This document shows positions 4,841 through 46,400 of a DNA stretch of 64,000 nt, piece by piece. This stretch comes from Haliclystus octoradiatus (Eukaryota > Cnidaria > Staurozoa > Stauromedusae > Haliclystidae). Location: the NCBI GenBank assembly GCA_916610825.1, contig OU744452.1, positions 14,798,110 through 14,862,109 of the forward strand, given 5' to 3'. Numbering within the stretch: position 1 is the first letter of the stretch; each line of letters opens with the position of its first letter. The translations under genes were made by a program, and so were the position numbers. The notes below the pieces were generated by a model. That model saw nothing but the letters and a program-made list of their open reading frames with translations. It made no database searches and was not told where the DNA came from.

Positions 4841-4901
4841 AAAGTTTTCTTCGCTGTCATCTGTCTGTCAAATGAGTTTGCCCTCTCCATTCATCCATTA
4901 A

Positions 4902-6240: not shown

Positions 6241-6277
6241 CCTCACGTCAATAGCCATTACATATAACATAGCAATA

Positions 6278-6424: not shown

Positions 6425-6438
6425 ATTGGCACTGCGTA

Positions 6439-7218
6439 ATGGATTGCAAAAGAATCCTACAGGTTGATGATGCAGAGAATGCTATTGCTTGGTTTGGAGC
6501 TTTCAATGCTAGATTTCGTAGAGAGAAGATTGTTGATGGTGACGCTAACAAACATGAAGAATTATCAAAGGCAGATTTATTCCTGGAGCTATGTGGCGAG
6601 AACGCTTATATTACATTTTCTCGATTGGTCAAGCCATTAAGTTTAGATGCTCTCCCTTTTGACGTTATTTACGAGGAGGCAAAATCAGATATTGAGCCAA
6701 AGAAACGATTTCTTATTGCAGATAGGACAGAATTTTTCAAATTACGAAAGAAAAAAGACGAATCTATTGAAAATGTATACTCCCGAATCAACTATCTCGC
6801 TGATCGTTGCGACTTTTCGCAATTAAAAGCTATGGGAGATCCATCCTCTGAGTTGAAGCGCTTAGCTTTTATAAATTGCTTTAAAGATCACAGAATTACT
6901 CGGGATTTATTGGATCATATGCGACAGTTTCCTGAGGCATCCTTCGAAGATCTACGAGCAAGATACTACGAACAAACAGACATATTTATTCAGCAGAAGC
7001 AACGTGTTGACGATAAATCTGGTACAAGTTTGCCCGTATTGGCTATGGATACTACTGAATCTACACGTAAACAATGTAAATTTTGTGATACGAATCATCC
7101 ACCTAGAAAGTGTCCAGCCTACAATAAACGATGCGCAAGATGTGGTAAGCTAGGACATTCATTGAATGCTGTTTTAAAAAGGCCAACTCATGTAAGCCGA
7201 AAGATATTAACGACATAG
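6439..7218 (+). CDS. Gag of Gypsy element A (frame broken in second zinc knuckle)
   Basis: A capsid-like helical region (residues about 1-190) with EFFKLRKKKDESIENVYSRI is followed by a knuckle CKFCDTNHPPRKC. A second knuckle, CARCGKLGH, has a last cysteine that lies in another frame. The frame changes near 7158, so the annotated C-terminus (RPTHVSRKILTT) is probably not native. The pol frame continues with KKANSCKPKDIND. The protein would form the cytoplasmic particle of the retroelement. Start at the first ATG, close to the LTR. Confidence 0.8.
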   Translation: MDCKRILQVDDAENAIAWFGAFNARFRREKIVDGDANKHEELSKADLFLELCGENAYITFSRLVKPLSLDALPFDVIYEEAKSDIEPKKRFLIADRTEFFKLRKKKDESIENVYSRINYLADRCDFSQLKAMGDPSSELKRLAFINCFKDHRITRDLLDHMRQFPEASFEDLRARYYEQTDIFIQQKQRVDDKSGTSLPVLAMDTTESTRKQCKFCDTNHPPRKCPAYNKRCARCGKLGHSLNAVLKRPTHVSRKILTT

Positions 7219-9800
7219 ATTTACATGTAGGAAACATTGATACTCTCAATAAGAATACTTCTGATGATGATAATGATTTAGCATTTATTTGCCATTTGTT
7301 TGACGATGTTAATCTGAAAATACATGACGTAGCATTGACCCCTGAGGTAATCACAGTTAATGGTATTGATGTCAGCATGATTCAGGATTCCGGAGCAGCA
7401 TGTTCTGTTTTGTTGACAAAGCTATGGCGGAAAATCAATTGTCCTGAATTGAATGCAACACAGAGGAAACTCACTTGCTACGATGACCATCAACTGTTTT
7501 TTAGGACATTGTAATTTAACAATTTGTGGACTTAATGGTAGTTTAAATGTAATTTTTTGTTGTTGTAGAATCTAATCGTAACTGTGGGCTTTTAGGACGT
7601 GACGTTCTAAGAAAGTCTCATGCTATTCATTTGGTTGCCGAAGATATTAAGCCTCTTCCTTACATCACAGGTGTCATTGCTTCTATGAAATTAAAAAAGG
7701 GTGCTTGGCCAATGTTTTGTAGGGCTCGCCCAGTTCCTCTTCCGCTAAGAGAGTCTGTTTGTGCAAAGCTAGAAAACTTGAAGCTCTAGGTATTATTGAG
7801 CCAATCGAAGGGGGTGGGGCAGAAAACGCATAACCTGTGGTTTGGATTAAAAAAAAGTCGGGCGGTTTCGTATGTGTGCGGACTTTAGCGTTCACATTAA
7901 TGATAAAATACTTTGTGATGATTATCCTTTGGCCAAACATAGAGACAATATTTTCTGAAATGGACGGCCCCCAATACTTTTCAAAAATTGATTTCAAATC
8001 GGCATATTGGCAAGTCCTGCTAGACGCGCATGCTCAAGCCTTGTCAGTAATCAATACCAGTGAAGGCTAATATCGAGTAACCCGACTACAAATGGGTATG
8101 AGAAATAGCTCAGCAATTTTTCAGCGCTATCGTAGAGGTTTTGAAAGGCATCAAATGCGCTATTGCCTATCAAGACGATGTACTCGTTTTTGCTAAAACC
8201 GAAGTATCATTAGCCAAGCGATTAAATGCAGTAATGGAACGGTTTGCAAACCGAAAATTGTCTATAAATACTGAAAAATGCACCCAGCGTGATTCGGAAG
8301 TGACGTTTTTAGGTTACAGAATTTCTGCTAATGGTATCCAACCTGACAAAACCCTTGTGCAAAAAATTGAATCTATGCGTGCCCCCCAGAACAAAAAGGA
8401 AGTCAAATCTTTCGTAGGTCTGGTAAATTTTTTCGGACGACTGATTCCTAATTTCGCCGATAAAATTAAACCTCTTAATGCTTTACGAAAACAAAATTCT
8501 CATTTTAAATGGATTGAAAAATGCGATAGAGCTTTCCAGCATCTTAAATTAGAATTATCTAGGGAACCTATTGTACAACCATATTATCTGTCAAAGGAGG
8601 CAACGTTGACTACTGACGCGTCTGCGGATTGCATAGCTGGGGGGTACTGACTCAGGAAGGCAAGCCAGTAATTTTTATTTCTATGTCGCTAACAGCAGCT
8701 GAGCAGAAATACTCTGCTACTGAAAGAGAATGATTAGGCATTGTATGGTGCGTAGAGCGGCTTCGCCAGCTATTATTAGGAAGAAAATTTACTCTTGTCA
8801 CTGACCATAAAGCACTTATTCAATTATTTGGGGCAAACGAGTCAATCCCTAAAACTGCTTCCGCTCGCATTTGTCGTTGGGCTATTAAATTAATGGCCTT
8901 TGATTATGAAATACAACATCGCCCAGGTACAGAAATTGCCCACGCTGATGCTCTTTCTAGGTTCTCCAACCATACTATCACGCGCGAAGATGTAGTTGCT
9001 TCTATTGAGATTGCTAATGTCACTGACTCTGCGTTTTTAAAACCTTTAATCCCTTTTCTTGATTTAAAACTTGCAACAAGCTCAGATTTATTAGCTTCAA
9101 GTATTCAAAAACGTATTATAGTAATGATGACTGGATTAAAACATCAGAAGCAGAACGTCCTTTCTTGAGCGTGTGTAATATGTTAACTGTAGAAAATGAC
9201 GTCATATACTGTGGATCGGTACCATTCATACCGACAGCTCTTCGTAGCTCTGTTATGCAAGCTGCACATACTACAAATCAAGGCATAAATGCTACTAGAC
9301 CCTTGTTAAGCAAAGGGCCCGGATTAGCTTAGCAAGCGTCGAGTAGCATTTATATACATTATTAGTAAATGTGCTTTGTGTGCTCAAATCCGTCCAGTAA
9401 CCGGGAAATCTGTTCACCGTTGGCCAGAGGTTCCACCGTGGGAACGTCTTCAAATGGACTTTGGTCACATTGCCGACGTCGGTAATGTTCTATTGATCGT
9501 TGACGCTGGTAGCGGGTGGATCGAGGCCTTTCGTTGTCCCGATAGGTCCACCTAGCATATTATTAAAATATTTTCTGCTCTATTTTCCTGTTTTGGCGTA
9601 GCTAAGCATCTTGTTTCCGATAATGCCCAGGAATTTGTTAACGACGAAATTGTAAATTGGCTAAAAAATTCCGGCTGTTATAAATCATCTATATATATAT
9701 ATACATCTATTTATTTTCCTCGCGCTAGTGGTCTAGCTGAGCGCTCTGTCCAAACCATTAGCACGAGACTATTCCTACACGAGATATTAGTGGTGCTGCG
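7200..9800 (+). pseudogene. Pol remnant of Gypsy element A (PR-RT-RH-IN)
   Basis: The protease motif is IQDSGAACSVL (about 7380). RT has KIDFKSAYWQV (about 7985) and the catalytic box YQDDVLVF (about 8168). LGYRISANGIQPDK and FVGLVNFFGRLIPNFADK follow. RNase H has LTTDASADC (about 8608) and TDHKALI (about 8801), then RPGTEIAHADALSRF. The integrase core has MDFGHIADV (about 9450), VSDNAQEFV (about 9614) and GLAERSVQT (about 9730). Stops occur near 7513, 7786, 7830, 8068, 8731 and 9552. A 65-bp hairpin (9287-9351) sits in the integrase N-terminal region. The chromodomain/C-terminal part is missing. Confidence 0.85.
9287..9351. repeat. Hairpin inside Gypsy integrase region (copy A)
   Basis: AAATGCTACT at 9287 and AGTAGCATTT ending at 9351 begin 25-bp inverted arms with about three mismatches around a 15-base loop. 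The copy B equivalent is 35716-35780. It lies where the HHCC zinc-binding part of the integrase should be coded, and the reading is disturbed there. Confidence 0.7.
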
Positions 9801-19836: not shown

Positions 19837-21042
19837 TTATAGTGCCCTTTTGAGTTGTGAAACAGATTTTTGCATGCTAGGTTTAATAGATCTTTGAATA
19901 CTTAATCTAACATCGTCTAAATATTTAGCAAAACATGTTGGGCACGGAAAACAACCATCTGGAAGCCTTTGGCAATCATTTAGATCAGTCGATAAGATTG
20001 TTTTGTAAGTATTGACTTTCATTTTGAAATCTTTATCATTTGAAATTCTTTGATCAAATTTCTCTTTTGCAATTCTATAAAGTTGAATATCATATTCATG
20101 ATATTTCTTTATCATATCTGTAACATCATCTGGTAGTTTTGTCATTTTCTCTTTCGCACTTCTGGCAGAGTTCATTGGAACATAAACTAGATCTTCATAT
20201 TCCCAACACATTGCCTCTTTAAGTAAAACCATAGACTCATCGAAATGATCAGCTAATATGATCGATGTAAAATCTCCTAACACATCATGAATACTTTTAT
20301 TTAATTCTTCAGCTGTTATGGTGTTAGGATATTTTATACCCAAATCATACAATTGTAAGTTACGTTTCATCAAATGGAAATGATATCGAAAAAATTGATT
20401 GCCCATTTGGGTGTTGAAAGCATCATTCACTAATGAAGGGTTTGTCAAAAATATTCGAATTGCATCAAATAATGTTACCTTGGTATTTAAAGTTTTCTCG
20501 ATAATTGTATGAATTCTTGCATATTTGAACATTGAAATAAAATAATCGATAGGATGCTTAATACTTGCTAAATATTGTCTACCATCATTTGTAAGTTTTT
20601 CTAAAATCTTTTTATTGTAAATTATTTCATCAGCAATAACATTACACTTTGCATTCCTTGGTTTTAATAACAATGTTTCATCAATTTCATAAGGCCAATT
20701 AATATGATATGAATCTTGTGCATCCATACATATTATTAAATTATTTTTTATTGCATATCGAAATAACATAACTTTAATTGTTGTTGATGCTGTCTTCTGT
20801 ATTTTTACATAAACAAAATCTTGAATTGGTTGACCAGTACATTTTCTATACAGATTTGTAGGATCTTTTGTAGCAGAAGTATTTATATAACTTTTCTTTG
20901 TAAAATTATATACTTGCATTGAATAATTCGGCGAATAATTTACGACTGAAAATCTTTCCATAGAAGTACGATATAATATAAAGAGAAAACAGAATATTAT
21001 AATTAAAGAATAAATCAATAACTTCTTATTACGTAGAGACAT
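19837..21042 (-). CDS. GAL3ST-like: Galactose 3-O-sulfotransferase-like protein, copy 1
   Basis: 401 residues, intronless. A short cytoplasmic MSLRNKK head and one membrane span (residues about 8-24, LIYSLIIIFCFLFILY) make it a Golgi type II protein. The PAPS 5'-phosphate loop reads VKIQKTASTTIKVMLFR (about residues 79-95). The 3'-phosphate region reads LASIKHPIDYFISMFKYA (about 158-175). LADHFDESMVLLKEAMCWE (about 264-282) is typical of Gal3ST/cerebroside sulfotransferases. A cysteine cluster DGCFPCPTC lies near the C-terminus. The family moves sulfate from PAPS to the 3-OH of terminal galactose on glycolipids or glycans; the exact acceptor cannot be told. The first ATG gives the anchor. AATAAA signals follow on the minus strand at 19826-19831 and 19801-19806. 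Confidence 0.9.
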   Translation of the reverse strand: MSLRNKKLLIYSLIIIFCFLFILYRTSMERFSVVNYSPNYSMQVYNFTKKSYINTSATKDPTNLYRKCTGQPIQDFVYVKIQKTASTTIKVMLFRYAIKNNLIICMDAQDSYHINWPYEIDETLLLKPRNAKCNVIADEIIYNKKILEKLTNDGRQYLASIKHPIDYFISMFKYARIHTIIEKTLNTKVTLFDAIRIFLTNPSLVNDAFNTQMGNQFFRYHFHLMKRNLQLYDLGIKYPNTITAEELNKSIHDVLGDFTSIILADHFDESMVLLKEAMCWEYEDLVYVPMNSARSAKEKMTKLPDDVTDMIKKYHEYDIQLYRIAKEKFDQRISNDKDFKMKVNTYKTILSTDLNDCQRLPDGCFPCPTCFAKYLDDVRLSIQRSIKPSMQKSVSQLKRAL

Positions 21043-21247
21043 TAGAATAATATTTTATTTTGTAAAATCTTTGTTTGTTGACCTATTCTCCTAAATTCGA
21101 TTTCAGCCACAAATTCATGTAACGCTTTATTTCGCTCAAAAACCCAAATAAAAATTTATTCTCCTTCAGTATGCACGATATAGTCATATAGCAGCTAGTA
21201 GCTTTCAATCACAATTTAATAATCAATGATGTTCATTATGATGCAAT

Positions 21248-26762: not shown

Positions 26763-28326
26763 TCATTGACGTGTTTGTGGTAGACAAAGACCATATTGCC
26801 ACAAAACCATACCCTCGTTGCATAAATAATCGTTGAAATTATCTCTAACTTCCTTTGCAGCAAACGGGGCATTATGGCCTGTTGGTGGGACCTGCAGAGG
26901 CAGCATATTTGATGTGCAATTTTGTTGACGCCATCTCCCAGGGGCAGTTTTGTGGTTAGCATTAATGCTGTCACACAAGCCAGAAGGACAATAAGAACCT
27001 GTGTTGTCTGTTTTGCGTAGAAAATTGTGAATTATCAGGGTGCATAGGGTGACTACCTCTATCTTTTTTGGAGGGATTGTGAAATTGCTACGAAAAAGCC
27101 TCCAACGATTTGCAATAATACCAAACAGGTTCTCAGATATCCTTCTGGCTCTACTGTGACGATAGTTGTAAATTCGTTTTTCATCATCTAAATTTGACAT
27201 GGGATAAGGCTTCATGAGAAATGTTTTTAAGGCAAATGCGTCATCCCCAACAAAGACATAAGGCAACGATACAGTGCTGGAAGGAAGGGTATTGTTGTTG
27301 AGAAACAATCTTAATAGTAATTAATCTTAATAGTAATTATTTAATCTATGAGAGATTGTCCTTATGAAAACGAGGCTACAGACCTCATGTTTACGACTAG
27401 CAGTTTCATGATGGCTGATCTACATTGCAGTCTTTTTACTTTATGATTATATCTAGTTATATCTCAGAAATCTCGTGTCATCGCTGTGTCGTAGTTAATT
27501 AGACATCATGTCAACAATTGTTAGGGGGCAACTCCATCTCCCCGCTTTCAATTTGCTGGTCCAAAGCGGTTTTATTCCATACCCCTCCATCAGATACTCT
27601 CCCATTAGTTCCAACATCTGCGTACAGGCATTCGTAATTAGGGCCAGCTACAGCTAGAAGGACTATAGAATTGGTGTGTTTGTAGTTGTAATAAATAGAA
27701 CCAGAGTTTGGGGGTCGCTGCATAACTAGATGTTTACCATCAATTGCTCCAATGAAATTTGGATATTGCCAACGATCACCAAACTCTTTGCCTACAGCAA
27801 TTAATCCATTCTTCTGATGTGGACGGTGTTTTCAGAAATATTGACTGCATGTTTTTAATAACTGCTTCACAGACATTTTGGATAATGTATGAAATAGCTC
27901 TTACAGAGATCCTAAATTGATAGGATTGTGAGTGGAATGTCTCTCCTGTTGCCATGAACCTTAATGTTAGTGTTAAGCGTGATTTTGCGTTAATGGTTGC
28001 AGTTCCTCCGACAATCTCCGTTGGAGTGATATCTGCCTCAATGTAGCTAAGAATAGTTAGAAAGTGATCTAAAGTCATTCGTAGCATTTCTCTGTTGAGG
28101 CAGAGTCCTCGGCCGACAATTCTCTGATGATATTGCTGGAATAGCCATGTTGGTTTCTTCGTCTTATCCAGTCTCGAGTTCTACCTCTTCTCCGTGGAAC
28201 ATTATCATCAAACATAATCTCCAACATAATAACAAAGAAAGCAAGTTTTCGCTTACGAAGCTGTTGCAATAGAAGGGGCGATAAAGAAGGTGCCATAATC
28301 AAAAGAAAATACATATAATTTTGCAC
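26763..28326 (-). pseudogene. PIF/Harbinger transposase, broken, copy B
   Basis: Nearly identical to the copy at 333-1896, with the same frame breaks. Here the element also keeps the convergent MADF-like accessory ORF at 24854-25972, the two-gene arrangement typical of PIF/Harbinger elements. The DDE motifs DGKH, YADVG and RRISENLFG are all present. Confidence 0.85.
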
Positions 28327-28669
28327 AAACTCAACAAATAAACGCCATGTTTTTATAACTCAGTTTCAGGTGGGTAGTTCCCAAGTCCAATCCCGCGTTT
28401 TAGGAAAAGTCTATGGTTAAGTTGGATAATCGTTTGCCCACGTATCCAACATTTATTTGGACTCAGTTGGATTTTGTCCAAATAGCAATGTTGGATGGTT
28501 TGCTCGGGCCTTTATTCTATAATGCTCTGTTTTACCATAGTTTATAGAGACACCTGGTTAAAAAAGCTTCTATTAAAACAATAGGTCTATTGTCTAATGT
28601 TGTAAATGTGTCACGTGACGAAGAAGCTCCATCAAGTTTTCATTTCTTCTTCGTTGCAATTTCAAAGTG

Positions 28670-30050
28670 GCCATGCGGGTCTATGCACTTGGTATAACTC
28701 CATTGTTATCGTTTATTAGACAACTACCAACAAACGAGTTACGCCATGCTGCCTTTGCTGATGATCTTGGAGGAGCAAGCACTTTCAACGAATTACGTAT
28801 ATAGTTGGATAAAATCCTAGAATATGGTCCCAAACTTGGATACTATCCTAACAACAAAAAGTCATGGCTAGTTGTGAAATCTCCAGAGAAAGCTGAAACA
28901 GCCATATCGGTGTTTTTATTTAACACAAATCAATATTACGCTTAACGTACGGAAATGTCTGGGTGGATTTATTGGAAATACAGAAGGAACATCTGCATAC
29001 ACTCTGAGCTAGTAAGAAAATGGTATGAACAAATAGTGGGCTTATCTCAGATAGCAAAGAGTCAACCCCGAGCTGCATACACTGCCTTTGTTGGTGGATG
29101 TTGTCATAAGCTAACATATTACATCAGAACTTCATCCCAGAGCTTCAAACGACAAACTGAACTTCCCTTTTTAGACCATGCAATTGACACTCTTTACATC
29201 CCATCAATTTGCGAAGGACATGGTTACATGTCATCAACATAAGAAACATCAACCACCAAACTCTACGTGAAGACCTACAGGCAAGAATGGACAGTATGAG
29301 TCTTCGTGCAAATCAGCTTATTAGTATGAAAGGGTCATCAAATTGGTTAACAACTTTACCTTTGAAGTCAGAAGGATTTTCTCTAAGTAAGCGGGAATTT
29401 TTTGATGCAATTTGCCTTCGATATCGCTGGCCAATGAAGCATGTCCCCTTAGACTGTCCATGTGGAAAAAAATACACCATCGGCCATGCTCTATCCTGCC
29501 CAAAAGGGGGGTACATGTTTCAACGCCATGATAACATTAGAGACACCTTGGGGAAAGTTTTAGAGGAAACCTGTCGAGATGTTGCAATTGAGCCTCATAT
29601 TGCCCCTTTAACAGGACAAAATCGACCACCATCTACAATAACAGGAGACGAAACTCGCCTAGATATCTGCGCTAGAGGTTTTGGATTAGAGGTCAAAGAG
29701 CATTTTTTGACGTAACGTAAGGGTGTTCAATCCCTTTGCTCCTACAAATCTAAACCAAAACCTCAAGCAAAATTTCAAAACGCAGGAAAAAGAAAAAAAA
29801 AGAATATACAACAAAAGAATCATAGAAGTTGAACACGGTTCTTTTACACCTCTGATCTTTTCTGCGGATGGTGGCTGCAGTCCAGAAACTGAACGCTTCA
29901 TAAGTGAGATATCTGAAAACTAGTAGAGAAGCAATACAATGATATCAGCGTTGAAAAAATTGGCTTAGAAACAAATTGTCCTTTGCCTATGTTAGATCTG
30001 CAATTTTGTGTATTCGGAGTTCAAAAACAATAAAGTGAACACCATTCACT
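28670..30050 (+). mobile_element. R2-like non-LTR retrotransposon, 5'-truncated, copy B
   Basis: Duplicate of 2240-3620 with the same breaks. Visible differences include D to G in the knuckle (YTIGHALSC instead of YTIDHALSC) and F to L at DSMSLRANQL. The AAFADD catalytic box is kept. Confidence 0.75.
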
Positions 30051-30249
30051 AACACTCTATAAGATGCCAATATAACAGATGTGGTAGGATCCATCAACTA
30101 ATGATGGACCCACATCAACTTCATATTAAGTAAAAATAAATAGAATATAAAATTAATTTGAATATAAACATAATTTATAAACCTCCCATTTGTATGTCCA
30201 TAAAAATTTGTTTTGAAATATATCTTATCATTATTTAAAAAAATTCAAA

Positions 30250-31270
30250 ATGGCTGTGTGTTTCAACCCTGAACTTAACAGTTCTAATTGTGACGATTGT
30301 CTATCTACTTCAGATTCTTTAATGATTTCTGAATTTGTTTTGGATAATGCAGATTTATCATTTGATCTTCCTTTTATATTGGATGAAGAAGTCAATTATA
30401 ATAATAATAATAATAATAATAATATGCATTTTTATAGCGCCATTTCTTGATGAATCCAATGGCGCTTTACAGGATTATATAGTAATAAAATTAAATAAAA
30501 GGTATATACAAAATGAAATACATAAGGTAAGTAAGTATAAGGTAAGATTCATTGTTAAACATCTACAGCATATTTGTAAACATCTACAGCATCTATCATT
30601 GTTAAAATTATTTAATTGGAGATACAAATGTCAAATGCAACGAATGTGCGAAAGAATTTAAATCTAGTACTGGTTTGAAAATTCACGTTTCAAGGATGCA
30701 TAAAACTACTGTATCTCAATCACTTTTAAATACACAGTGTTTGTCTCGTGATGATATTACTACACTGGTTTTAACAGTAAACAGAAAAATGAAAGACGAA
30801 GAAATATTTCTACTTCCATATAGAACAACTGCCGTCTTCTGTCCGTGTAGAACTATCAAAATCGCTTTGCAAGCTTTTGCAAACTTATTCTGTCAATGGA
30901 AAACTAAATTCATTCTACAAAAAATTTTGTAAAGTACTAAATAAATCTGCCACTTTTTATCCCAGCACGAAAGTAGAAATCGTAAATCTTCTGCTTACTA
31001 AACTGGCACCTGAACTCATCTCGTTTGTCAAAAATGCATCGAAAATGATTGATGAAATTGATGACAAAGTCGTTGATAATATTAAAGAAGAGAGAAGAGG
31101 GCGATGTCTTATACTCTGAGATCTGTTCTTTGAAGATATACAAGAAAACAGTTTTTGGTAAGACAGGCCCACGCCAGTGGCAGAGCCAAATCGCTAGCCT
31201 GTTTTTAAATACTTTGAGAGCACCCAAGGATGATAACATATATCTCAATAGCTTCGCGAATCACGACTAA
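30250..31270 (+). pseudogene. C2H2 zinc-finger gene fragment, broken, copy B
   Basis: Duplicate of 3820-4840. It has one extra single-base deletion (CCATTATAG in A, CCATATAG here, near 30820), which changes the downstream frame relation. The finger and the Asn-coding AAT run are preserved. Confidence 0.45.
30398..30424. repeat. (AAT)n microsatellite, copy B
   Basis: Same repeat as at 3968-3994. The unchanged length fits a very recent duplication. Confidence 0.9.
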
Positions 31271-31330
31271 AAGTTTTCTTCGCTGTCATCTGTCTGTCAA
31301 ATGAGTTTGCCCTCTCCATTCATCCATTAA

Positions 31331-31643
31331 TCCCCTGGGGGGGGGTAACCAGCTCGGGGACGGGGAGGTGCCACTTTGAAAAAAGGTAAAGTACCCAAAA
31401 GTTCCAAAAATTCTGTTGATGCTACCCAAAAAGTTCCAACAGGTTAATTGATTTAGGTAAATACACAAAAATGATGAAATGATGCAAATTATTTCAAAAA
31501 TTCTTGAAAAAGTCAAAGATAGGATACCCAAAAGCTCCAAAATTTGAAATCTCATACCCAAAAACTTTTTTCTCAGCTGGAATATGGACCCAAAAAAAGT
31601 GGCACGTCCCCGTATAGCTGTCCTAGTGGAGTTACCCCTGGGA
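31331..31643. mobile_element. TTAA-flanked MITE (piggyBac-like), copy B
   Basis: Duplicate of 4902-5214 with TTAA at both ends. One C to T change is visible near its right end. Confidence 0.75.
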
Positions 31644-31989
31644 TTAATCCAGTATTTAAACAGGGTTAATAATATTCCCATAAAGTAATTTGTCAACTAA
31701 ACTCTTGGAAATTGGTTACATCCTCTAAGGCTGCTGAACTTCTTGAAATTTTCCTGCCAGGGACAAGACACTACAAGACACATTATCAACCATGTCGATT
31801 ATGCAAATATATATAGACATGCAGTAAGTAAGTTATTGAATTAGAAAGCATATAAATACCCCCAATAATACGCGTTTATATGCTTTTAACTAAATTGAAG
31901 AAAAGTGAAAGCAACCAAGCTATCATTTATTCTACCTTTCTTGACTTTCGACTCGACCATAGAAATACCAGGAAATTAAATATTTAGAT

Positions 31990-32669
31990 GCCATTCATAA
32001 AGTACGTACTCAGTAAATACTCCAATAATTGACCCCTACTGCCCCTGTACGCAGCTGTACGCTTTGTGATACCCCCCTGTGCGTACGCACTCAGTTTTAT
32101 TCTGACTCCCCAAATTTTTGATTTTTTTTCAATGTGTTTTTCAAAATCAAGCAAGTACAACTTATAACGCGTAGTTTAATCCCCGCAAAATGATTAAATC
32201 AGTATACGCTTATTTCTTAATATTAGAATATAAATTTAAAAGAAGGAAGATCATAATTGTTAAACCTTTTGAATAATTTACAAAATCAACTGTTTACTCT
32301 ATCTATGCAATGTGAATAATTAACAGCATTGTTTTCTTTACGTTTTACATTTTTTTATGTTTTCAAAATGACGTAATATTTTAATTATATGTGGCGCAAT
32401 TTTATGGTTGTCCAAGTAATGGCGTACTATTTTATGATATTGACCGTATACTGTACGTTCTTCAAATTTATTTGATTTAAAACGTAACTTTTCGGTTAAG
32501 TGTAATTAATCATCACTAAAAACTGCATCAAATATATTTGAAAATAACCGAAGAGACAGTGAAGATGCGTACGTACTAACCTTGATTGACCCCCTTCCCC
32601 CCTGTACGCAGCTGTACGCTTTTGGTGTGACCCCCTCCCCCATACTGAGTACGTACTTTATGGATGGCC
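31990..32669. mobile_element. MITE with GTACGTAC-type inverted ends, copy B
   Basis: Duplicate of 5561-6240, with one C/A difference in the left C-rich tract. Confidence 0.65.
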
Positions 32670-32706
32670 CCTCACGTCAATAGCCATTACATATAACATA
32701 GCAATA

Positions 32707-32853
32707 TGTGGCATAATGTGATGCCTCATTTCCATGTAAACCTCGTTTATATATTCTGTACATATAGTAAATTTAATGTCAATATAGATCACTTCTGTCT
32801 CAGCTATGAGCGTGTCATCATCTACCTTCTAATGCTTATGTCGTGATATCACA
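32707..32853 (+). repeat. 5' LTR of Gypsy element B
   Basis: 147 bp, TGTGGCATAATG to GATATCACA; identical by eye to the 5' LTR of copy A. Confidence 0.9.
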
Positions 32854-32867
32854 ATTGGCACTGCGTA

Positions 32868-33647
32868 ATGGATTGCAAAAGAATCCTACAGGTTGATGAT
32901 GCAGAGAATGCTATTGCTTGGTTTGGAGCTTTCAATGCTAGATTTCGTAGAGAGAAGATTGTTGATGGTGACGCTAACAAACATGAAGAATTATCAAAGG
33001 CAGATTTATTCCTGGAGCTATGTGGCGAGAACGCTTATATTACATTTTCTCGATTGCTCAAGCCATTAAGTTTAGATGCTCTCCCTTTTGACGTTATTTA
33101 CGAGGAGGCAAAATCAGATATTGAGCCAAAGAAACGATTTCTTATTGCAGACAGGACAGAATTTTTCAAATTACGAAAGAAAAAAGACGAATCTATTGAA
33201 AATGTATACTCCCGAATCAACTATCTCGCTGATCGTTGCGACTTTTCGCAATTAAAAGCTATGGGAGATCCATCCTCTGAGTTGAAGCGCTTAGCTTTTA
33301 TAAATTGCTTTAAAGATCACAGAATTACTCGGGATTTATTGGATCATATGCGACAGTTTCCTGAGGCATCCTTCGAAGATCTACGAGCAAGATACTACGA
33401 ACAAACAGACATATTTATTCAGCAGAAGCAACGTGTTGACGATAAATCTGGTACAAGTTTGCCCGTATTGGCTATGGATACTACTGAATCTACACGTAAA
33501 CAATGTAAATTTTGTGATACGAATCATCCACCTAGAAAGTGTCCAGCCTACAATAAACGATGCGCAAGATGTGGTAAGCTAGGACATTCATTGAATGCTG
33601 TTTTAAAAAGGCCAACTCATGTAAGCCGAAAGATATTAACGACATAG
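32868..33647 (+). CDS. Gag of Gypsy element B
   Basis: 259 residues, with one visible change from copy A (V to L in FSRLLKPLSL). Same knuckle-region frame break. Confidence 0.8.
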   Translation: MDCKRILQVDDAENAIAWFGAFNARFRREKIVDGDANKHEELSKADLFLELCGENAYITFSRLLKPLSLDALPFDVIYEEAKSDIEPKKRFLIADRTEFFKLRKKKDESIENVYSRINYLADRCDFSQLKAMGDPSSELKRLAFINCFKDHRITRDLLDHMRQFPEASFEDLRARYYEQTDIFIQQKQRVDDKSGTSLPVLAMDTTESTRKQCKFCDTNHPPRKCPAYNKRCARCGKLGHSLNAVLKRPTHVSRKILTT

Positions 33648-36200
33648 ATTTACATGTAGGAAACATTGATACTCTCAATAAGAATACTTCTGATGATGAT
33701 AATGATTTAGCATTTATTTGCCATTTGTTTGACGATGTTAATCTGAAAATACATGACGTAGCATTGACCCCTGAGGTAATCACAGTTAATGGTATTGATG
33801 TCAGCATGATTCAGGATTCCGGAGCAGCATGTTCTGTTTTGTTGACAAAGCTATGGCGGAAAATCAATTGTCCTGAATTGAATGCAACACAGAGGAAACT
33901 CACTTGCTACGATGACCATCAACTGTTTTTTAGGACATTGTAATTTAACAATTTGTGGACTTAATGGTAGTTTAAATGTAATTTTTTGTTGTTGTAGAAT
34001 CTAATCGTAACTGTGGGCTTTTAGGACGTGACGTTCTAAGAAAGTCTCATGCTATTCATTTGGTTGCCGAAGATATTAAGCCTCTTCCTTACATCACAGG
34101 TGTCATTGCTTCTATGAAATTAAAAAAGGGTGCTTGGCCAATGTTTTGTAGGGCTCGCCCAGTTCCTCTTCCGCTAAGAGAGTCTGTTTGTGCAAAGCTA
34201 GAAAACTTGAAGCTCTAGGTATTATTGAGCCAATCGAAGGGGGTGGGGCAGAAAACGCATAACCTGTGGTTTGGATTAAAAAAAAGTCGGGCGGTTTCGT
34301 ATGTGTGCGGACTTTAGCGTTCACATTAATGATAAAATACTTTGTGATGATTATCCTTTGGCCAAACATAGAGACAATATTTTCTGAAATGGACGGCCCC
34401 CAATACTTTTCAAAAATTGATTTCAAATCGGCATATTGGCAAGTCCTGCTAGACGCGCATGCTCAAGCCTTGTCAGTAATCAATACCAGTGAAGGCTAAT
34501 ATCGAGTAACCCGACTACAAATGGGTATGAGAAATAGCTCAGCAATTTTTCAGCGCTATCGTAGAGGTTTTGAAAGGCATCAAATGCGCTATTGCCTATC
34601 AAGACGATGTACTCGTTTTTGCTAAAACCGAAGTATCATTAGCCAAGCGATTAAATGCAGTAATGGAACGGTTTGCAAACCGAAAATTGTCTATAAATAC
34701 TGAAAAATGCACCCAGCGTGATTCGGAAGTGACGTTTTTAGGTTACAGAATTTCTGCTAATGGTATCCAACCTGACCAAACCCTTGTGCAAAAAATTGAA
34801 TCTATGCGTGCCCCCCAGAACAAAAAGGAAGTCAAATCTTTCGTAGGTCTGGTAAATTTTTTCGGACGACTGATTCCTAATTTCGCCGATAAAATTAAAC
34901 CTCTTAATGCTTTACGAAAACAAAATTCTCATTTTAAATGGATTGAAAAATGCGATAGAGCTTTCCAGCATCTTAAATTAGAATTATCTAGGGAACCTAT
35001 TGTACAACCATATTATCTGTCAAAGGAGGCAACGTTGACTACTGACGCGTCTGCGGATTGCATAGCTGGGGGGTACTGACTCAGGAAGGCAAGCCGGTAA
35101 TTTTTATTTCTATGTCGCTAACAGCAGCTGAGCAGAAATACTCTGCTACTGAAAGAGAATGATTAGGCATTGTATGGTGCGTAGAGCGGCTTCGCCAGCT
35201 ATTATTAGGAAGAAAATTTACTCTTGTCACTGACCATAAAGCACTTATTCAATTATTTGGGGCAAACGAATCAATCCCTAAAACTGCTTCCGCTCGCATT
35301 TGTCGTTGGGCTATTAAATTAATGGCCTTTGATTATGAAATACAACATCGCCCAGGTACAGAAATTGCCCACGCTGATGCTCTTTCTAGGTTCTCCAACC
35401 ATACTATCACGCGCGAAGATGTAGTTGCTTCTATTGAGATTGCTAATGTCACTGACTCTGCGTTTTTAAAACCTTTAATCCCTTTTCTTGATTTAAAACT
35501 TGCAACAAGCTCAGATTTATTAGCTTCAAGTATTCAAAAACGTATTATAGTAATGATGACTGGATTAAAACATCAGAAGCAGAACGTGCTTTCTTGAGCG
35601 TGCGTAATATGTTAACTGTAGAAAATGACGTCATATACTGTGGATCGGTACCATTCATACCGACAGCTCTTCGTAGCTCTGTTATGCAAGTTGCACATAC
35701 TACAAATCAAGGCATAAATGCTACTAGACCCTTGTTAAGCAAAGGGCCCGGATTAGCTTAGCAAGCGTCGAGTAGCATTTATATACATTATTAGTAAATG
35801 TGCTTTGTGTGCTCAAATCCGTCCAGTAACCGGGAAATCTGTTCACCGTTGGCCAGAGGTTCCACCGTGGGAACGTCTTCATATGGACTTTGGTCACATT
35901 GCCGACGTCGGTAATGTTCTATTGATCGTTGACGCTGGTAGCGGGTGGATCGAGGCCTTTCGTTGTCCCGATAGGTCCACCTAGCATATTATTAAAATAT
36001 TTTCTGCTCTATTTTCCCGTTTTGGCGTAGCTAAGCATCTTGTTTCCGATAATGCCCAGGAATTTGTTAACGACGAAATTGTAAATTGGCTAAAAAATTC
36101 CGGCTGTTATAAATCAGAAATATCTATTTATTTTCCTCGCGCTAGTGGTCTCGCTGAGCGCTCTGTCCAAACCATTAGCACGAGACTATTCCTACACGAG
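33629..36200 (+). pseudogene. Pol remnant of Gypsy element B
   Basis: The same domain series as copy A: DSGAACS protease, YQDDVLVF RT box, TDASADC and TDHKALI RNase H, and the DFGHIADV and VSDNAQEFV integrase core. Stops are shared. One visible difference is K to Q after IQPD. Confidence 0.85.
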
Positions 36201-36767: not shown

Positions 36768-38493
36768 ATTCGAATTAGCAAAATTTTTCTATTAAACGAA
36801 GTCAGAAGTTTTATGTTTTAAGTTTGAAAGTCGGAAGTTTGAAGTATTGAAGTTTGATATTATAATGAGAGCGCTTAAAAGTGGCCCGCCTCGGTCATCG
36901 TACTATACTATCGTCTATAGTAACATTGTTCAGATAATATAGAAGGGAGACAAAGGCTCAAATATTTATCGTCAACTATTTTTCAACCTGCAAAAACCTT
37001 GCTATGTGGATAACAATAAAAATATTGTAACAAAGGCCGAACAAACATGCGTATGTATACAAAGGTAATGAAATTGAGTATGAATTGCAGAAGTTATATA
37101 CATCTTAAGATATTCATGCTCATTTCATCATTATTGTACAAATTGTCATTGACTTACAATCTATTGAAATTGTTTCTAACTGATTTTTATTTCTTTTATA
37201 GTGCCCTTTTGAGTTGTGAAACAGATTTTTGCATGCTAGGTTTAATAGATCTTTGAATACTTAATCTAACATCGTCTAAATATTTAGCAAAACATGTTGG
37301 GCACGGAAAACAACCATCTGGAAGCCTTTGGCAATCATTTAGATCAGTCGATAAGATTGTTTTGTAAGTATTGACTTTCATTTTGAAATCTTTATCATTT
37401 GAAATTCTTTGATCAAATTTCTCTTTTGCAATTCTATAAAGTTGAATATCATATTCATGATATTTCTTTATCATATCTGTAACATCATCTGGTAGTTTTG
37501 TCATTTTCTCTTTCGCACTTCTGGCAGAGTTCATTGGAACATAAACTAGATCTTCATATTCCCAACACATTGCCTCTTTAAGTAAAACCATAGACTCATC
37601 GAAATGATCAGCTAATATGATCGATGTAAAATCTCCTAACACATCATGAATACTTTTATTTAATTCTTCAGCTGTCATGGTGTTAGGATATTTTATACCC
37701 AAATCATACAATTGTAAGTTACGTTTCATCAAATGGAAATGATATCGAAAAAATTGATTGCCCATTTGGGTGTTGAAAGCATCATTCACTAATGAAGGGT
37801 TTGTCAAAAATATTCGAATTGCATCAAATAATGTTACCTTGGTATTTAAAGTTTTCTCGATAATTGTATGAATTCTTGCATATTTGAACATTGAAATAAA
37901 ATAATCGATAGGATGCTTAATACTTGCTAAATATTGTCTACCATCATTTGTAAGTTTTTCTAAAATCTTTTTATTGTAAATTATTTCATCAGCAATAACA
38001 TTACACTTTGCATTCCTTGGTTTTAATAACAATGTTTCATCAATTTCATAAGGCCAATTAATATGATATGAATCTTGTGCATCCATACATATTATTAAAT
38101 TATTTTTTATTGCATATCGAAATAACATAACTTTAATTGTTGTTGATGCTGTCTTCTGTATTTTTACATAAACAAAATCTTGAATTGGTTGACCAGTACA
38201 TTTTCTATACAAATTTGTAGGATCTTTTGTAGCAGAAGTATTTATATAACTTTTCTTTGTAAAATTATATACTTGCATTGAATAATTCGGCGAATAATTT
38301 ACGACTGAAAATCTTTCCATAGAAGTACGATATAATATAAAGAGAAAACAGAATATTATAATTGAAGAATAAATCAATAACTTCTTATTACGTAGAGACA
38401 TTAGAATAATATTTTATTTTGTAAAATCTTTGTTTGTTGACCTATTCTCCTAAATTCGATTTCAGCCACAAATTCATGTAACGCTTTATTTCG
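36768..38493. repeat. Sulfotransferase-containing repeat, copy 2
   Basis: Near-identical to 19409-21134, and starts at ATTCGAATTAGCAAA 25 bases after the end of duplicated block B. Confidence 0.9.
37196..38401 (-). CDS. GAL3ST-like: Galactose 3-O-sulfotransferase-like protein, copy 2
   Basis: 401 residues. It differs from the 19837-21042 protein at two places: Leu to Ser in the membrane span (LIYSSIIIF) and Ile to Met at YPNTMTAEE. All cofactor-binding motifs (IQKTASTT, SIKHPIDYF, DHFDESM) are kept and the frame is intact, so both copies could be active. The distal AATAAA of copy 1 is AATAGA here (minus strand, near 37160), but the one next to the stop remains. The Harbinger-to-Gypsy block lies just downstream of its 3' end. 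Confidence 0.9.
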   Translation of the reverse strand: MSLRNKKLLIYSSIIIFCFLFILYRTSMERFSVVNYSPNYSMQVYNFTKKSYINTSATKDPTNLYRKCTGQPIQDFVYVKIQKTASTTIKVMLFRYAIKNNLIICMDAQDSYHINWPYEIDETLLLKPRNAKCNVIADEIIYNKKILEKLTNDGRQYLASIKHPIDYFISMFKYARIHTIIEKTLNTKVTLFDAIRIFLTNPSLVNDAFNTQMGNQFFRYHFHLMKRNLQLYDLGIKYPNTMTAEELNKSIHDVLGDFTSIILADHFDESMVLLKEAMCWEYEDLVYVPMNSARSAKEKMTKLPDDVTDMIKKYHEYDIQLYRIAKEKFDQRISNDKDFKMKVNTYKTILSTDLNDCQRLPDGCFPCPTCFAKYLDDVRLSIQRSIKPSMQKSVSQLKRAL

Positions 38494-40430: not shown

Positions 40431-43400
40431 CTGCAAAGACAACAATTAAAAAATAAATGTAATATTGATCAAAAATTTCTACGTCAAATATTTCAGAGTG
40501 AAAGATAAGGACAAAAAACTACAAGTATAAAATAGAAAATTTTTCGGTAATATTCATTATACCATCGTCAGTTCAAAAGATATAAAATATTAATTTACAA
40601 ATTATTTATAGGCTAAGGATCTGAAAACTTAATACATTCTAATTGTTATAATACTGCTAGAAATTAAACAATGAAAACGAAAGGAAACCTATTTAATTAA
40701 AAATGTACTATTTATGAAGTACTTCACAAAATTTTTACAACAATTACTGTATGTAGCTTTTTGTCGCTATCTTTCACTCTGAAATGTAATACTATTATTG
40801 AAAAGGCTGGGAAGGGGTGATTAGCCCCTGGAATACGTTGGCAGGGGACATGAAACCCCCGTATACATAAATCTCCACAAATAAGAAGATCAATACATTT
40901 CAGCCCTATACAAAATCATTTGAAACGCTGTAGCTGTTTGGTTTTCATTCCCTTGCTAGCATATTCTTTGCAAGCAAAATGATTTAGAAATTTTAAAATT
41001 TAGCGAAAACTGTAAAACCAGGTAAACGCGAGGACATTCAAAAAAGATATTCATAACAATATATGGTTGATGATCGGCGTAGAATCATTTCAAATAGTAC
41101 AGCAAAAATTAATGTATAATTCTTTGAAATTTCAAATCGAATAAAATTTATTCAATTTCGGAGAATCTCAACATATAAATCAAGGTTTTACAACCTAGAA
41201 AACTCCTAGAAATATATCATTATCTTTCATTTGATCATTATAGTTTCGAGTTAATTATCTATCATTCGTTTCATGTTGTAGCAAATAAAATTGAAAACCT
41301 TTCAAAATTCCAAAAAGTAATACCAACATTTTCAATTTCCTATCATTTGATAATTAATAACCATGAATTTACTTAGAATTGCAAAGTGCCTAAAAGATTA
41401 TAATGCTTCTTATACATAGCCAGTTTATAAGGCCCCCGTTAAAGCCCCTTTATAAGGCCCCCGTTAAAGCCCCTTTATAGTCTTTATATGGAACCATTAG
41501 GCACAACAATAGCAAAACATGGAACATTAATAAGATTTTAATATACCTTCAAGTAATTCACAGCTGGTTTTGTAATTTGTGCACATCCAGAAATATACAA
41601 CGATGTTAATGTTGCTGCAACTGTGCTTGCCAAAACAAAGACAGAATGATCAGTTAAATTATGCAAGCCAGATAAAACAAGAATACGTAATGGAAAACGA
41701 TTCGCCAATTCACACACGCCAGCATCAGTAATCTATACGGAGAAAAAAGAAGACAAATCTCATATTAATTATTACTTTGATAAAATGCATACACATTTTT
41801 TACAGATTCGCCGAGAAAAAACGAAGAGGAGGCCTAACATTATTACTTCTGTTCTGCTCTAGAAGAATACAAATATTTACGCAAATCTACAATTTGCGTA
41901 GTAGTATAGTCCCATAGAAAATTAACAAATCAAACGGACACTTTGGCTATAAGATAGATATTGGAAATAGTCTACAACTATTTACCATAATATTTTGAAC
42001 TAATTAGAAATCAAAAATAATTTTAAAATGTATACCGGAACTAATTCCAGACCAGACACTTACCGTTACAACTCAAAAATAAATTAAAAGAGTCTGGAAC
42101 TACTTCCAGTGAACATCCAAATAGTACAGCAGTAATAGTAATAGTACGATTTTTCTATGGGACTGCTACACAGATTGTAGATTTGCGAATATAAATAATT
42201 ACCCGTACACATCCTTTGAGGTTGACAAGTGTTAATTTTGTTAAATGTTCACTAAGTAGAAAGAGTAGATCATCGCCAGCTGTATTGATACCAGCTATCT
42301 TAAGTGTTTCAAGATTCGCACATGATGGTAAAAAATCAAGAAGGATATTGTATGAAAACTAAATGAAAGAAAACAAAACATGGATGATAATACATATCAA
42401 CGTATATAATAACATTTATGTTTATCTAATAGCAGATAATATAGGGCTCTATGTCTTCATTTAACAGAGCGGTAAATAATAATAATATATTCATATTGTA
42501 AAAGAGTCAAAGAATACACATTCTTTACTGTTACTCAAGTTTCACGCATTTCACTGCGATCTTCAGACAGATTTTTACTCAATGAAAAATATACATGATC
42601 TACGTTCTATATAATGAAATATATATAGAAAGCGGCATTACGGATAGTTTATCATAGAACGTAGATCATGTATATTTTTCATTGAGTAAAAAATCTGTCT
42701 TAAGATCGCAGTGAAATGCGTGAAACTTGAGTAACATTAAAGAATGCGTATTCTTTGACTCTCTCACCATATATTATTATGGTAAGCAGAGCTGTATAGA
42801 TATAAAATAAGAAACAAGACGTTTTCTCCGTTACTCGAAGTTTCGCGTTGTAGCGCTCCTCAGACGGTTTTATTCATTTATTGATATGAATAAAACCGTC
42901 TGAGGAGCGCTACAGCGCGAAACTTCAAGTAACGGAGAAAACGTCTCGTTTCTTATTTTATATCTATGTGTGGTCTCTGACTGCTTTCGATTTCTATTAT
43001 TAATATATTATTATAATAATATATATATATATATATATATATTATTATAATAATAATTAATAAACGAAAAAATCAGACATTCATATTTGCTACTATTAGT
43101 TTCACGCCAAGGCGATCATCAGGCAATTTAATCTGATTAAATTGCCTGATGATCGCCTTGGCGTGAAACTAATAGTAGCAAATATGAATGTCTGATTTTT
43201 TCGTTTATTAATTATTAAACAGCTCTGCATTTATGGCATCGAGCACTATTGAAACAGCAAAGACAACACAAGTACCTTGATATTACTATTATTATAATAA
43301 TATATTAATAATAGAAATCGAAAGGAGTCAGAGACCACACATTTTTATATTGTTACTTTAAGTTTCATGCTTTTATAGCAATCATCGGACAGAAATAAAC

Positions 43401-46400
43401 TATTAACGAAAAAATATACAGGAATACCTCATATAGTATTCATATAATACTTATACTCATATTCAGCTGCGGCAATTACATTTACCTGAATATGAGGTAC
43501 TCCTGTATAAGAGGTACTCCTGTATATTTTTTCGTTAATAGTTTATTTCTGCCTGATGATTGCTATAAAAGCATGAAACTTGTAACAAGTAACAGTATAA
43601 GAATGTGTGGTATCTGACTCCTTTCTATTTGTATTATTATTATTTACAGCTCTGCCATTTATGACATTGAGCACTATATTCTTTGCTATTAGATAACATC
43701 TAATAATAATATATATTATTATATATAATATATATTATTATATGTATCTGTAGCTATACCAATAGATAAAATGTAACTTACCTTTCGACAACCACCAAGC
43801 AATAGCTGTTTTAATGACTGTGCTTGTTTGCTTCTATTGTCATCCTTTAGACGTTGTAAAGGTTTACCTTCAACACCATCACAGAAACACAACGCTAATT
43901 TACTTAATTTAAGACAATGTTCAACAATTGCTTGTAAACTTTTATCAGTGATTGTTCGACAGCCACTGAAATCTATTTCCTTGATATCAGCACCCCGTAT
44001 CACCATCATCTGTAGAAATGAAAACTGATGATATATACTGTAAAGTAAATCATATACATATAGCAGATCTAGCAGCTCCTGAATGATTATGAACTGTCAC
44101 ATAATTCATCAGAGGGTCTATCCAAACTCTGAAAGTTCATGAACTTATTATTATGAACTGTTCCAATGGATATGATTTTGCAGAAGACAACATTTGTGTG
44201 CCTTCTTAAAACATTGCTTGAGCTCAAACTGTGAATAAGTTGAAGGTTGAAATTGAGGATACAGTAAAACATTTTTATGAACGTTCATGAAAAATTTCAC
44301 GAAAAACAGTCCTTTTTACATTCATGAAAATGAACAGTTCATGAACTCAGTTATATTTTTTGCAGGTGTAGACATGTTTATATGCAACGAGACAACGAGA
44401 AGATTTGAAGTATGTGTCTTTATATAAATGGATAAAATGATACTGGATTGACAAAAAGCACTTTACAATATACAATTAGGCACTTCGAACAGAAAGTTAA
44501 GGAATACATTTTTACTAATGATCTTTCTAGTTATCGGAAATTTTGCCCAAGTATTCTTCACTACTTCATCTAAATCGATCTGGTCAGTCAATTCCTTCTC
44601 GTAAGAAAAAGCTTTATAACAGTTTTCAGGCGGTCCTGTTTTATTGTGCTCCGCATCAATGTCTTTATTAATTTGAGCATTGAGAAGCTCCGCATATTTG
44701 ACGCTGCTGTGATTGGGGCTGATAAGATTAGGCGCATGCACTTTTCTGCTAAAGGGAATAGACTTTTGAATTTTCTGCAGTGGTCAGATACTGTACGCAG
44801 TGCTGCTCCAATCTTGCCGTTGATACTGCTATGGCCTCCCCTGATATGATTAAATATGCATATAGTAACATCGAGTGTTTCCAGGGCATCGATGATGTTA
44901 AGATCGAATGCCTACACTTCCTTTGTCAAGATCTTTGTCGTTGGCATGACGTTTTTCATGAACATGAGGAAAGCAATAAATTCAAAAGATTTGTCCATTC
45001 TGAAATATTTCTAGTTTTTGCTTGCGTCTTTCTATCATCAACACTTGTTTGACTTTCAAGAGCAGTTACTATTCCATCAAAACTAGCCCAAACTGCATGA
45101 ATAGAACCAGCCCATCCAATCCAACCGGTTGCTGATAAATTTTTCAGCTCACGCGCACCGGTAATATCCTGATCTTTTATATGTTGTTGAAATGCTATGT
45201 ACCTCTTCGTACTTGATGCGAACAATACATGCATATATTTTTTTGAATGAATAACTTCAAATGTTAAAATATTTGTTAATTTTCGTTAATTATGATTTAT
45301 GAAATATTTAATAAAATTTGGATGAAATATGCGGACCACCTCAAAATGTTCACTCTACTGTTTAGAGTCATCATTTCAGCAAAGAGACAAATGAAAACAT
45401 TTATTGAATTAGACTTGTGGCTGAATTGTTTTCAACTTAGGATAACCCCCGTGAAAACAGTCCATAAATGTGAAATTACCAAATATTCACAAACTGTTTA
45501 TGAAGTATTTATGAGCTATTAAAGAAAAGTTTCTGAACAACTCATGAAAACAGTTCACGGAAAGTCCCTGCAAATTGGGCAATTACCATTCATAACTTTA
45601 TGAACTTAACAAATCTCGTGGAATATAGTCAATCTCCATCTGAACTCAATAGCAAGTTCCTAGTTAGGGCAGGTTTTCATAAACAATTACATTTGCTTTA
45701 TTACGTACCTCTTTGACAGATTTATCAGTTACTGCTGTTATACCACATAGTCCAAGTACTTCTAGGTTGATACAATGATGACATAACTCGTAAAGGTACT
45801 GCTCCGACACTTGAATACCACGTATGACAACTTTGACAAGACTCAATGGAAATAGACTAGCATTCGGATATGGTGGACCAGTGCAGAATGTGTTGATATA
45901 TGAAAAGTCAACTGCACGAAGCGGTAACCTTTCACAAAGCTGAAAAGGAAACATAAAATCATTCAACAATAAGATAGCTCAGAGTTTTTCTGCGGTATTG
46001 TCTTTTATTGAAAATTAGGGGTGAGACGATAGCGAAATTTACCAATGTTTGACGACGATGAGTTGATTGCCGGTTAGTCATAACAATCAACCGATTAATC
46101 GATTTTTCCGATTAGGTAGTAAACAAAACAGAGCGACGAATGTTTTGAATTACAAAACGATGTAAACAAAACAGAGCGACTGTATACAGAGTAGAAACAA
46201 CTTTTGAATAAATCAACTTTTCAAAACATTTAATAAATGAATTTTCGAATAAGAAATCTTTATATAATTTCATTGTTTAAAACAATCGGTTCAAGGATTG
46301 ACAAATTGATTGAACTATCGATGTCAACTATTCTCCGATTAGTAAAGTTTAATGCGGATGATCGGTACAAGATGATCGGCAGAACCAATTATTTTCAGAA

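Follow-up and report, generated by a model that had tools for sequence, protein, structure and literature searches.

Head-to-head hammerhead ribozyme palindromes in Haliclystus octoradiatus as probable insertion products of a Penelope-like family

Introduction

How do hammerhead ribozymes come to lie in inverted pairs, one on each strand of a short palindrome? The question is raised by a stretch of 64,000 nt from the stalked jellyfish Haliclystus octoradiatus (contig OU744452.1, forward-strand positions 14,798,110 to 14,862,109; chromosome 7, 21.35 Mb), which is called the window here and is numbered from its first base. A first-pass annotation had proposed that it carries eight type I hammerheads arranged as four head-to-head palindromes, named A to D below. 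This was borne out: four inverted pairs were computed, with arms of 76-84 nt that are 100, 96, 93 and 95% complementary, and a covariance model trained on hammerheads of the same genome finds all eight motifs. The back-to-back arrangement is present, and it is best read as an insertion record and not as a designed pair. We propose, with a probability of roughly 0.8, that each palindrome is the insertion of two leader complementary DNAs (cDNAs) of a Penelope-like family, joined at their 5' ends, and a by-product of copying on both target strands. The pairing of the ribozymes is probably a by-product as well.

Hammerheads were reportedly described in Penelope-like elements (PLEs) in 2014. The locus bears on two questions, the role of the hammerhead in these elements and the route by which they insert. 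Natural insertion products whose junctions can be read are numerous in this genome; the ones examined speak for two coordinated starts with both target strands as primers, and some were apparently made from self-cleaved RNA, so that both questions become testable with sequence and RNA data. In vitro work on an Anolis PLE found the ribozyme dispensable for insertion, according to the main text of PMC11167929, and palindromes of this kind were previously put down to self-priming, as described in PMC3846280.

Relatives of palindrome C in the genome

The genome searched (assembly jrHalOcto1.1; 33 sequences, 261,861,806 bases) contains 2,930 matches to the pattern CTGATGA-N6..18-GAAACT-N2..8-AGTA compared with 5 for the reversed control, a count without the families to which palindromes A and B belong, since their CTGAAGA and CTGAGGA sequences do not match it. 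Further copies, suggested as a check on the first-pass annotation, were thus found, both by pattern and as relatives of palindrome C. Scoring of the best 40 of 1,507 candidate relatives gave 82 matches at 98-89% identity, with both strands matched in each palindrome. Anatomy was read in 21 copies, C and 20 fetched ones, and junctions were parsed in 20. The fetched copies were the top matches to a palindromic query without a tail, a choice that does not favour the presence of a tail.

All 21 copies share an outer arm starting with TAATAATTAATAAACG or a close variant, a hammerhead, a variable centre, a second hammerhead and TTAATTATTA. A tail of 71 nt ending in GATATTACTA is present in 20 of them, always at one end only; one copy (L006) has it at neither end, and none has it at both. 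Target duplications of at least 9 nt were found in 16 of 20 copies, compared with 28 of 380 mismatched flank pairs, and 11 of these 16 are not composed of A and T only. Where C-family sites have a neighbour within 300 nt, the two are head-to-head in 12 of 12 cases (83 sites on C1); the general hammerhead pattern gave 8 of 10 (100 listed places).

The parent element

A scan of the genome for GIY-YIG sequences gave 16 places, and 16 loci were fetched around them. At one of these, L049, inverted hammerheads of the palindrome A family lie on both sides of pieces of a PLE-like open reading frame (ORF). L054 also carries hammerheads by descriptor, and the remaining fourteen loci carry none by the same descriptor. 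The reverse transcriptase (RT) stretch of L049 was matched in open frames of up to 947 aa, often of 721, 734 or 740 aa, among the best 150 of 1,159 candidates. RT places less than 8 kb apart among these 150 are head-to-head in 25 cases, tail-to-tail in 1 and direct in 14, and 13 of the direct pairs are spaced by 2,494-2,525 bp.

In one tandem unit of about 2.5 kb, L067, about 95 nt separate an ORF from a leader with a hammerhead; then come TTATTATTA, a tail ending in TTATTATTA and the next ORF. Read from this order, hammerhead and tail form the 5' leader of the ORF in tandem Penelope-like units of about 2.5 kb. Palindrome A belongs to the same family as L067 and L049. The first-pass annotation had remarked on the arrangement as lacking any RT, which does not apply to its origin: hammerhead and tail head tandem Penelope-like units elsewhere in the genome. 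Its lead from minimal type I hammerheads to Penelope elements and retrozymes was right. Two PLE hallmarks are found, namely tandem units that are often inverted head-to-head (13 direct pairs at about 2.5 kb; 25 against 1) and a one-sided, optional tail with a short target duplication (20 of 21 and 16 of 20 copies).

In the L067 ORF, YRDD and YRKP..SNHP are collinear with an RVT_1 ORF, and a SYIG motif, SYIGLTEGTFKQR, was read by eye at the C terminus. It gave no usable match in Pfam, NCBIfam or PDB, neither to RT nor to GIY-YIG, and its alignment with the Pfam-confirmed RT and GIY-YIG ORF of another locus, L041, is collinear and not significant (hhalign probability 0.5%, E 0.12). The term Penelope-like therefore rests on architecture and on motifs read by eye. 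A candidate for the linked Penelope RT or GIY-YIG gene that the annotation had suggested looking for is an ORF of Penelope-like architecture adjoining the hammerhead leader (L067, L049), the L067 ORF being one that profiles do not match.

Other elements were seen at the retrieved loci. Pfam identifies RVT_1 and GIY-YIG in an open frame of 792 aa (L041:2261-4636), which represents another PLE type in this genome; an inverted ORF partner lies alongside, and no hammerhead was found by descriptor in 9.5 kb. Within the PLE locus L049, a second GIY-YIG ORF type forms its own inverted duplication (L049:4460-6330; arms of 505 and 302 nt, 99%). L053:1-2340 is a long open frame of near-perfect 21-residue peptide repeats (VFIWLAILFSYYHSNHHVMIC), probably a satellite repeat that stays open.

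Origin of the palindromes

The centres and the two arms were compared within copies. Loopless centres occur in 6 of the 20 parsed copies, C included, and also in L006, which is not among the parsed ones. In L018, L019, L021 and L024 the tail-less arm holds 5-11 nt that are absent from the tail-side arm, and in L123 the antisense arm ends about 50 nt before the other arm. Since 5-11 nt are missing from one arm and the tail is missing from the other, neither arm is a full copy of its partner. At 27 places with exact junctions, some of them in copies that overlap with the 21, 22 distinct junctions were counted. The fillers at the centres often repeat nearby arm sequence, as judged by eye, which is also a feature of polymerase-theta-like joining.

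These data bear on self-priming, in which a single cDNA or antisense RNA folds back and copies itself. The head-to-head Penelope junctions of Adineta vaga were ascribed to such priming on an antisense template (PMC3846280). Inverted pLTRs (pseudo-long terminal repeats) with palindromic junctions are thus known in PLEs and have been interpreted in this way; the Adineta elements described there have in common with those of Haliclystus inverted head-to-head pLTRs with a tail at one of them, solo pLTRs and palindromic junctions, and the Adineta target duplications of 8-10 bp are likewise short. The two differ in that the Adineta elements have a low copy number and that the word hammerhead is absent from the text of PMC3846280. 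Self-priming would also agree with private variants shared by both arms of one copy (L020 and L023, by eye). The Haliclystus junctions do not fit it: the loopless centres are not those of an unprocessed intramolecular hairpin and would need later trimming, four copies have arms unequal by 5-11 nt with a one-sided tail, and the antisense arm of L123 stops early in a family whose centres vary. Self-priming is therefore unlikely, and the same features of centres, arms and junctions speak for independent cDNAs, each primed by one of the target strands. The nearly fixed rule of one tail per palindrome suggests further that two starts of reverse transcription are assigned, one to each strand.

The diversity of centres also bears on a palindromic DNA transposon, either a miniature inverted-repeat transposable element or a foldback element, that chanced to carry hammerheads and was copied whole. 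Such an element would share the terminal inverted repeats, target duplications and nesting seen here. We regard it as very improbable, given asymmetric ends with a tail at only one of them, 22 distinct centres in 27 places and a sequence that belongs to an ORF-bearing tandem unit.

An insertion by priming on both strands could proceed as follows. The tandem element would be transcribed into an RNA that starts at CAGATTAAATTG, a few nucleotides upstream of the hammerhead, as we infer from the arm ends. The element protein would cut A/T-rich DNA with a stagger, each target strand then offering its 3' end as a primer. Reverse transcription would begin internally, at two leader sites separated by about 70 nt, a distal start on one strand keeping the tail and a proximal start on the other giving no tail. 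Both cDNAs would run to the 5' end of the RNA and be joined there with small deletions and fillers; the resulting palindrome would be head-to-head, have one hammerhead per strand and come with a target duplication. A transcript of a single unit has only leader sequence upstream of such a start and would give short products. Tandem transcripts have an ORF upstream of a leader in use; the cDNAs would then include it, and large head-to-head pairs would result. Part of the RNA would already be self-cleaved, and cDNAs of the 3' product would then give ribozyme-less mini-palindromes that end at the cleavage site. The sequences themselves show to which family the copies belong, that the tail is one-sided, that targets are duplicated, that junctions differ and where the arms end; the transcription start, the use of both strands as primers and the cleavage in vivo are inferred.

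The both-strand extension and the two starts in this scheme have their basis in the chemistry of the Anolis PLE Poseidon (Frangieh 2024, PMC11167929), for which the main text reports that both target strands are cut and extended in vitro, that reverse transcription starts internally at two adjacent sites and that the tail is the stretch between them. Both elements have a minimal type I hammerhead in the leader or pLTR, tandem units, a tail between two internal starts and A/T-rich targets; both-strand cutting and extension were seen in vitro for Poseidon and are presumed here. Unlike Poseidon as described there, the Haliclystus element has an ORF that Pfam does not recognise, a tail in the 5' leader upstream of the ORF, and many leader-only head-to-head copies. 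In the main text of PMC11167929, head-to-head, solo and template switch are not used, and twin appears only in a tag name.

L1 twin priming also relies on both target strands: each end is extended on the element RNA, and the two cDNAs meet in opposite orientation. There the two parts are different segments of one RNA; in Haliclystus one leader is covered twice, once by each arm, and this calls for two templates or strand displacement. Titles and abstract openings on hammerheads, PLEs, pLTRs, retrozymes and twin priming contained no ribozyme-bearing leader palindromes and no ends at the cleavage site, which is not proof of absence.

Besides the profile searches with the parent ORF, several observations weigh against the proposed origin. 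A head-to-head neighbour within 300 nt was found for only 16 of 100 listed hammerhead matches and 24 of 83 C-family sites; exact patterns miss mutated or shortened partners, and these counts do not give the paired share of all copies. No partner was seen at L057, L058, L060 and L062. One loopless junction is common to 6 of 20 copies and another to 2, which could hint at some copying of whole palindromes. The palindromic query favoured paired full-length arms in the sample of C copies. Finally, L067 belongs to the A family, and no full C-family unit is among the retrieved loci.

Arm ends at the cleavage site

Unexpectedly, some palindromes lack the ribozyme, both arms ending exactly at its cleavage site (three palindromes) or within 2 nt of it (two) and not at the RNA 5' end. 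A genome-wide search for C-family palindromes that reach the site gave three, two of them with both arms exact and one within 0-2 nt. L109 is a complete insertion that lacks a ribozyme; its parts are two arms of 40 nt, both reaching to the site, a filler and the full 71-nt tail. At L110 and L112 both arms end exactly at the site and the tail is present; L111 ends within 0-2 nt of it, and only the initial letters of its tail are left. L113 belongs to a duplicated group, ends 0-1 nt from the site and has a tail and, by eye, the duplication ACTAATAACTA. L059, from another family, has one arm that extends precisely to the base following the predicted cleavage site. We read such arms as cDNA made from a self-cleaved linear RNA; a circular template is not expected to end there.

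The last point concerns animal retrozymes, non-autonomous elements that spread through circular RNA made by hammerheads. As described in PMC7229834, they are small and non-autonomous and have type I hammerheads, low GC and target duplications, all of which would suit the Haliclystus copies. Retrozymes are tandem monomers with circular RNA, however; the 21 C copies are head-to-head pairs with no tandem monomers of 150-450 bp (10 loci of other families were lightly sampled), the cDNAs of the copies examined end at the RNA 5' end or the cleavage site, and hammerheads sit in the leader of an ORF-bearing unit. A retrozyme origin is decidedly unlikely.

For palindromes at the cleavage site a uniform null gives 7.7e-6, a rough value that ignores ends short of the site. 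Among the independent arm ends on C1 between -8 and +8, assigned by eye, three lie at -8, -5 and -2, six at 0 to +2 (L089, L081, the L091-L096 group counted once, L097, L072 and L082) and four at +4 to +6, and one is ambiguous (L124). Ends located 2-8 nt before the site (the right arm of L114, L123 and L118) and 4-6 nt past it (L086, L098, L099 and L105) speak against a stop at the site itself, and the latter four could possibly mark a second stopping point within stem III. The excess of C1 ends at the site is modest and becomes stronger in the paired cases. A junction control placed inside the hammerhead gave 3 places, equal to the number at the site, although the ends were scattered there, with one nearly symmetric at +12/+13. 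For the Anolis PLE, the main text of PMC11167929 reports that RNA-seq reads were absent from the cleavage site and that mutating the hammerhead left insertion in vitro unaffected, in contrast to the use of self-cleaved RNA suggested by the Haliclystus arms.

The drop in exact-pattern counts across the site was also considered as a cleavage signal. Counts fall from 541 to 325 (ratio 0.60), compared with 408 to 322 (0.79) in a neighbouring stretch. The signal was set aside, since the 41 C1 sites without the extension are mostly point or length variants by eye and pattern counts alone are therefore not evidence.

Some palindromes thus appear, from their ends, to have been made from self-cleaved RNA. 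A more general version is that the transposition template leaves a footprint at two points, where the RNA begins and where the hammerhead cleaves, arms stopping at one or the other. In that case the leader would be cut in vivo by the element's own ribozyme ahead of reverse transcription. With copying started inside the leader, transcripts of a single unit would yield only short palindromes that lead no further, and the ORF would be carried onward by tandem transcripts alone. We put the odds of this version at about even.

The hammerhead fold

The covariance model was built from 16 hammerheads at other loci of this genome, which include no window sequence and are relatives of the same families. 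On the 64-kb window it gave exactly 8 matches (E 5.2e-15 to 2.3e-10) and nothing further up to E=10. A strict descriptor of the conserved core (CUGANGA, GAAA and H17 between three helices) accepted 5 of the 8 motifs and none in each of 20 dinucleotide shuffles. It also placed the predicted cleavage after A42931 and A43177, as proposed in the first-pass annotation.

Rfam models, in contrast, matched nothing in the window at the gathering score, and within 42001-44200 they gave no hammerhead at E<=10, which counts against the hammerhead identity. The covariance check therefore came out at background with the Rfam models and strongly with the model of the genome's own hammerheads. We ascribe the Rfam miss to the 3-bp stem III, no known minimal hammerhead having been run as a positive control. 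Rfam hammerhead models may require a longer stem III. Some miRNA-like Rfam matches were dismissed, being below their gathering scores and reflecting long hairpins.

The covariation of stems between copies noted in the first-pass annotation holds for stems I and II. It was measured in 20 variants hand-picked from 49 extracted ones, 4 of the 20 being window sequences. Changes on both sides were found in 7 of 11 pairs; these 7 belong to stems I and II, which have 8 pairs between them. There were 30 double-change cells compared with 10.2 in shuffles, 0 of 500 shuffles reaching 30; stem III was fixed by the extraction pattern and is uninformative. An earlier statistic on stem II, with 171 of 204 pairs formed in 68 distinct stem-loops (shuffled mean 161.6, maximum 172), is suggestive only.

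Folding energies are less favourable to the hammerhead. In nearest-neighbour folding of the five intact motifs, the hammerhead fold as written by hand lies 2.5-6.8 kcal/mol above the minimum, in a calculation of secondary structure only, without Mg2+ or tertiary terms. The preferred computed fold keeps stem I and pairs the core differently, and the short RNAs are at best slightly better folded than shuffles (z 0.62 to -1.46). These computations do not show that a lone arm adopts the hammerhead fold. The energies suggest that the helices of the window hammerheads are likely weak, as in the hammerheads acting as dimers that are described in PMC7229834.

RNA reading through palindrome C is predicted to form an 82-bp hairpin (-139.3 kcal/mol) that buries the ribozyme, and the paired ribozymes of the window would most likely be passengers when transcription comes from outside. 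The presence of ribozymes on both strands could also recall an integrated ambisense circular RNA of viroid-like type with ribozymes in both polarities. The ribozymes of the two strands are copies of one sequence here, the genomic copies are numerous and have target duplications, and a unit with an ORF is linked to them; such an origin is exceedingly improbable.

Features of the window

The features of the cluster are listed in Table 1. The annotation had also called the palindromes nested. This stands for the third one, C, which lies between B and D with a target duplication of A and T only. No clean target duplication was seen for palindrome A, whose outer limits were judged by eye. The two outer ends of palindrome B diverge in sequence after TATATCTAT.

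Table 1. Coordinates of the palindromes and associated features in the window
Feature	Position	Strand	Remarks
Palindrome A	42407..42780	.	Antisense tail ~42407-42480, left arm, unequal centre, right arm from 42627
Hammerhead of A, left arm	42527..42571	-	Core intact; very short stem III (2 bp, or else closing on just 2 nt); E 5.2e-15, also strict descriptor
Hammerhead of A, right arm	42694..42738	+	Core damaged, CTTAAGA; E 2.3e-10; fails strict descriptor
Palindrome B	42781..43001	.	Arms 42796-42877 / 42886-42967; limits by eye
Hammerhead of B, left arm	42827..42868	-	Core intact; strict descriptor and covariance model
Hammerhead of B, right arm	42895..42936	+	Core intact; predicted cleavage after A42931; descriptor and covariance model
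Palindrome C	43051..43217	.	Left arm 43051-43133, right arm 43135-43217; loopless centre, 1 nt between; 100% complementary
Hammerhead of C, left arm	43086..43127	-	Core intact; descriptor and covariance model
Hammerhead of C, right arm	43141..43182	+	Core intact; predicted cleavage after A43177; descriptor and covariance model
Tail of C	43218..43288	+	71 nt, AACAGC...GATATTACTA; one outer end only; bounded by two putative reverse transcription start sites
Target duplication of C, right copy	43289..43301	+	A/T-only; 14 nt when last tail base counted
Palindrome D	43304..43708	.	Arms 43360-43435 / 43506-43581; tail on right ~43638-43708; limits by eye
Hammerhead of D, left arm	43349..43393	-	Core CCGATGA; E 1.7e-11; fails strict descriptor
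Hammerhead of D, right arm	43548..43596	+	Core intact, longer stem III, C.A mismatch in stem I beside core; E 7.8e-11; fails strict descriptor

The 3' part of the right arm of B resembles that of D (42959-43028 and 43280-43349) and is unlike the left arm of B, as if copying had drawn on two templates or had switched between templates.

Larger repeats occur elsewhere in the window. Four ORFs, one with DDE_Tnp_4 and one with RVT_1 by Pfam, are repeated in identical order at 333-8650 and 26763-35079 with an offset of 26,429-26,430 bases, and this constant offset indicates that a large segment was duplicated inside the window. A sulfotransferase-like ORF is found twice as well, at 19837-21054 and 37196-38413 (offset 17,359).

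In cnidarian mitochondria, TGA within the frame and AGA for Arg are the expected pattern. COX1 on contig 33 of the assembly has an in-frame TGA, and AGA where Arg is read.

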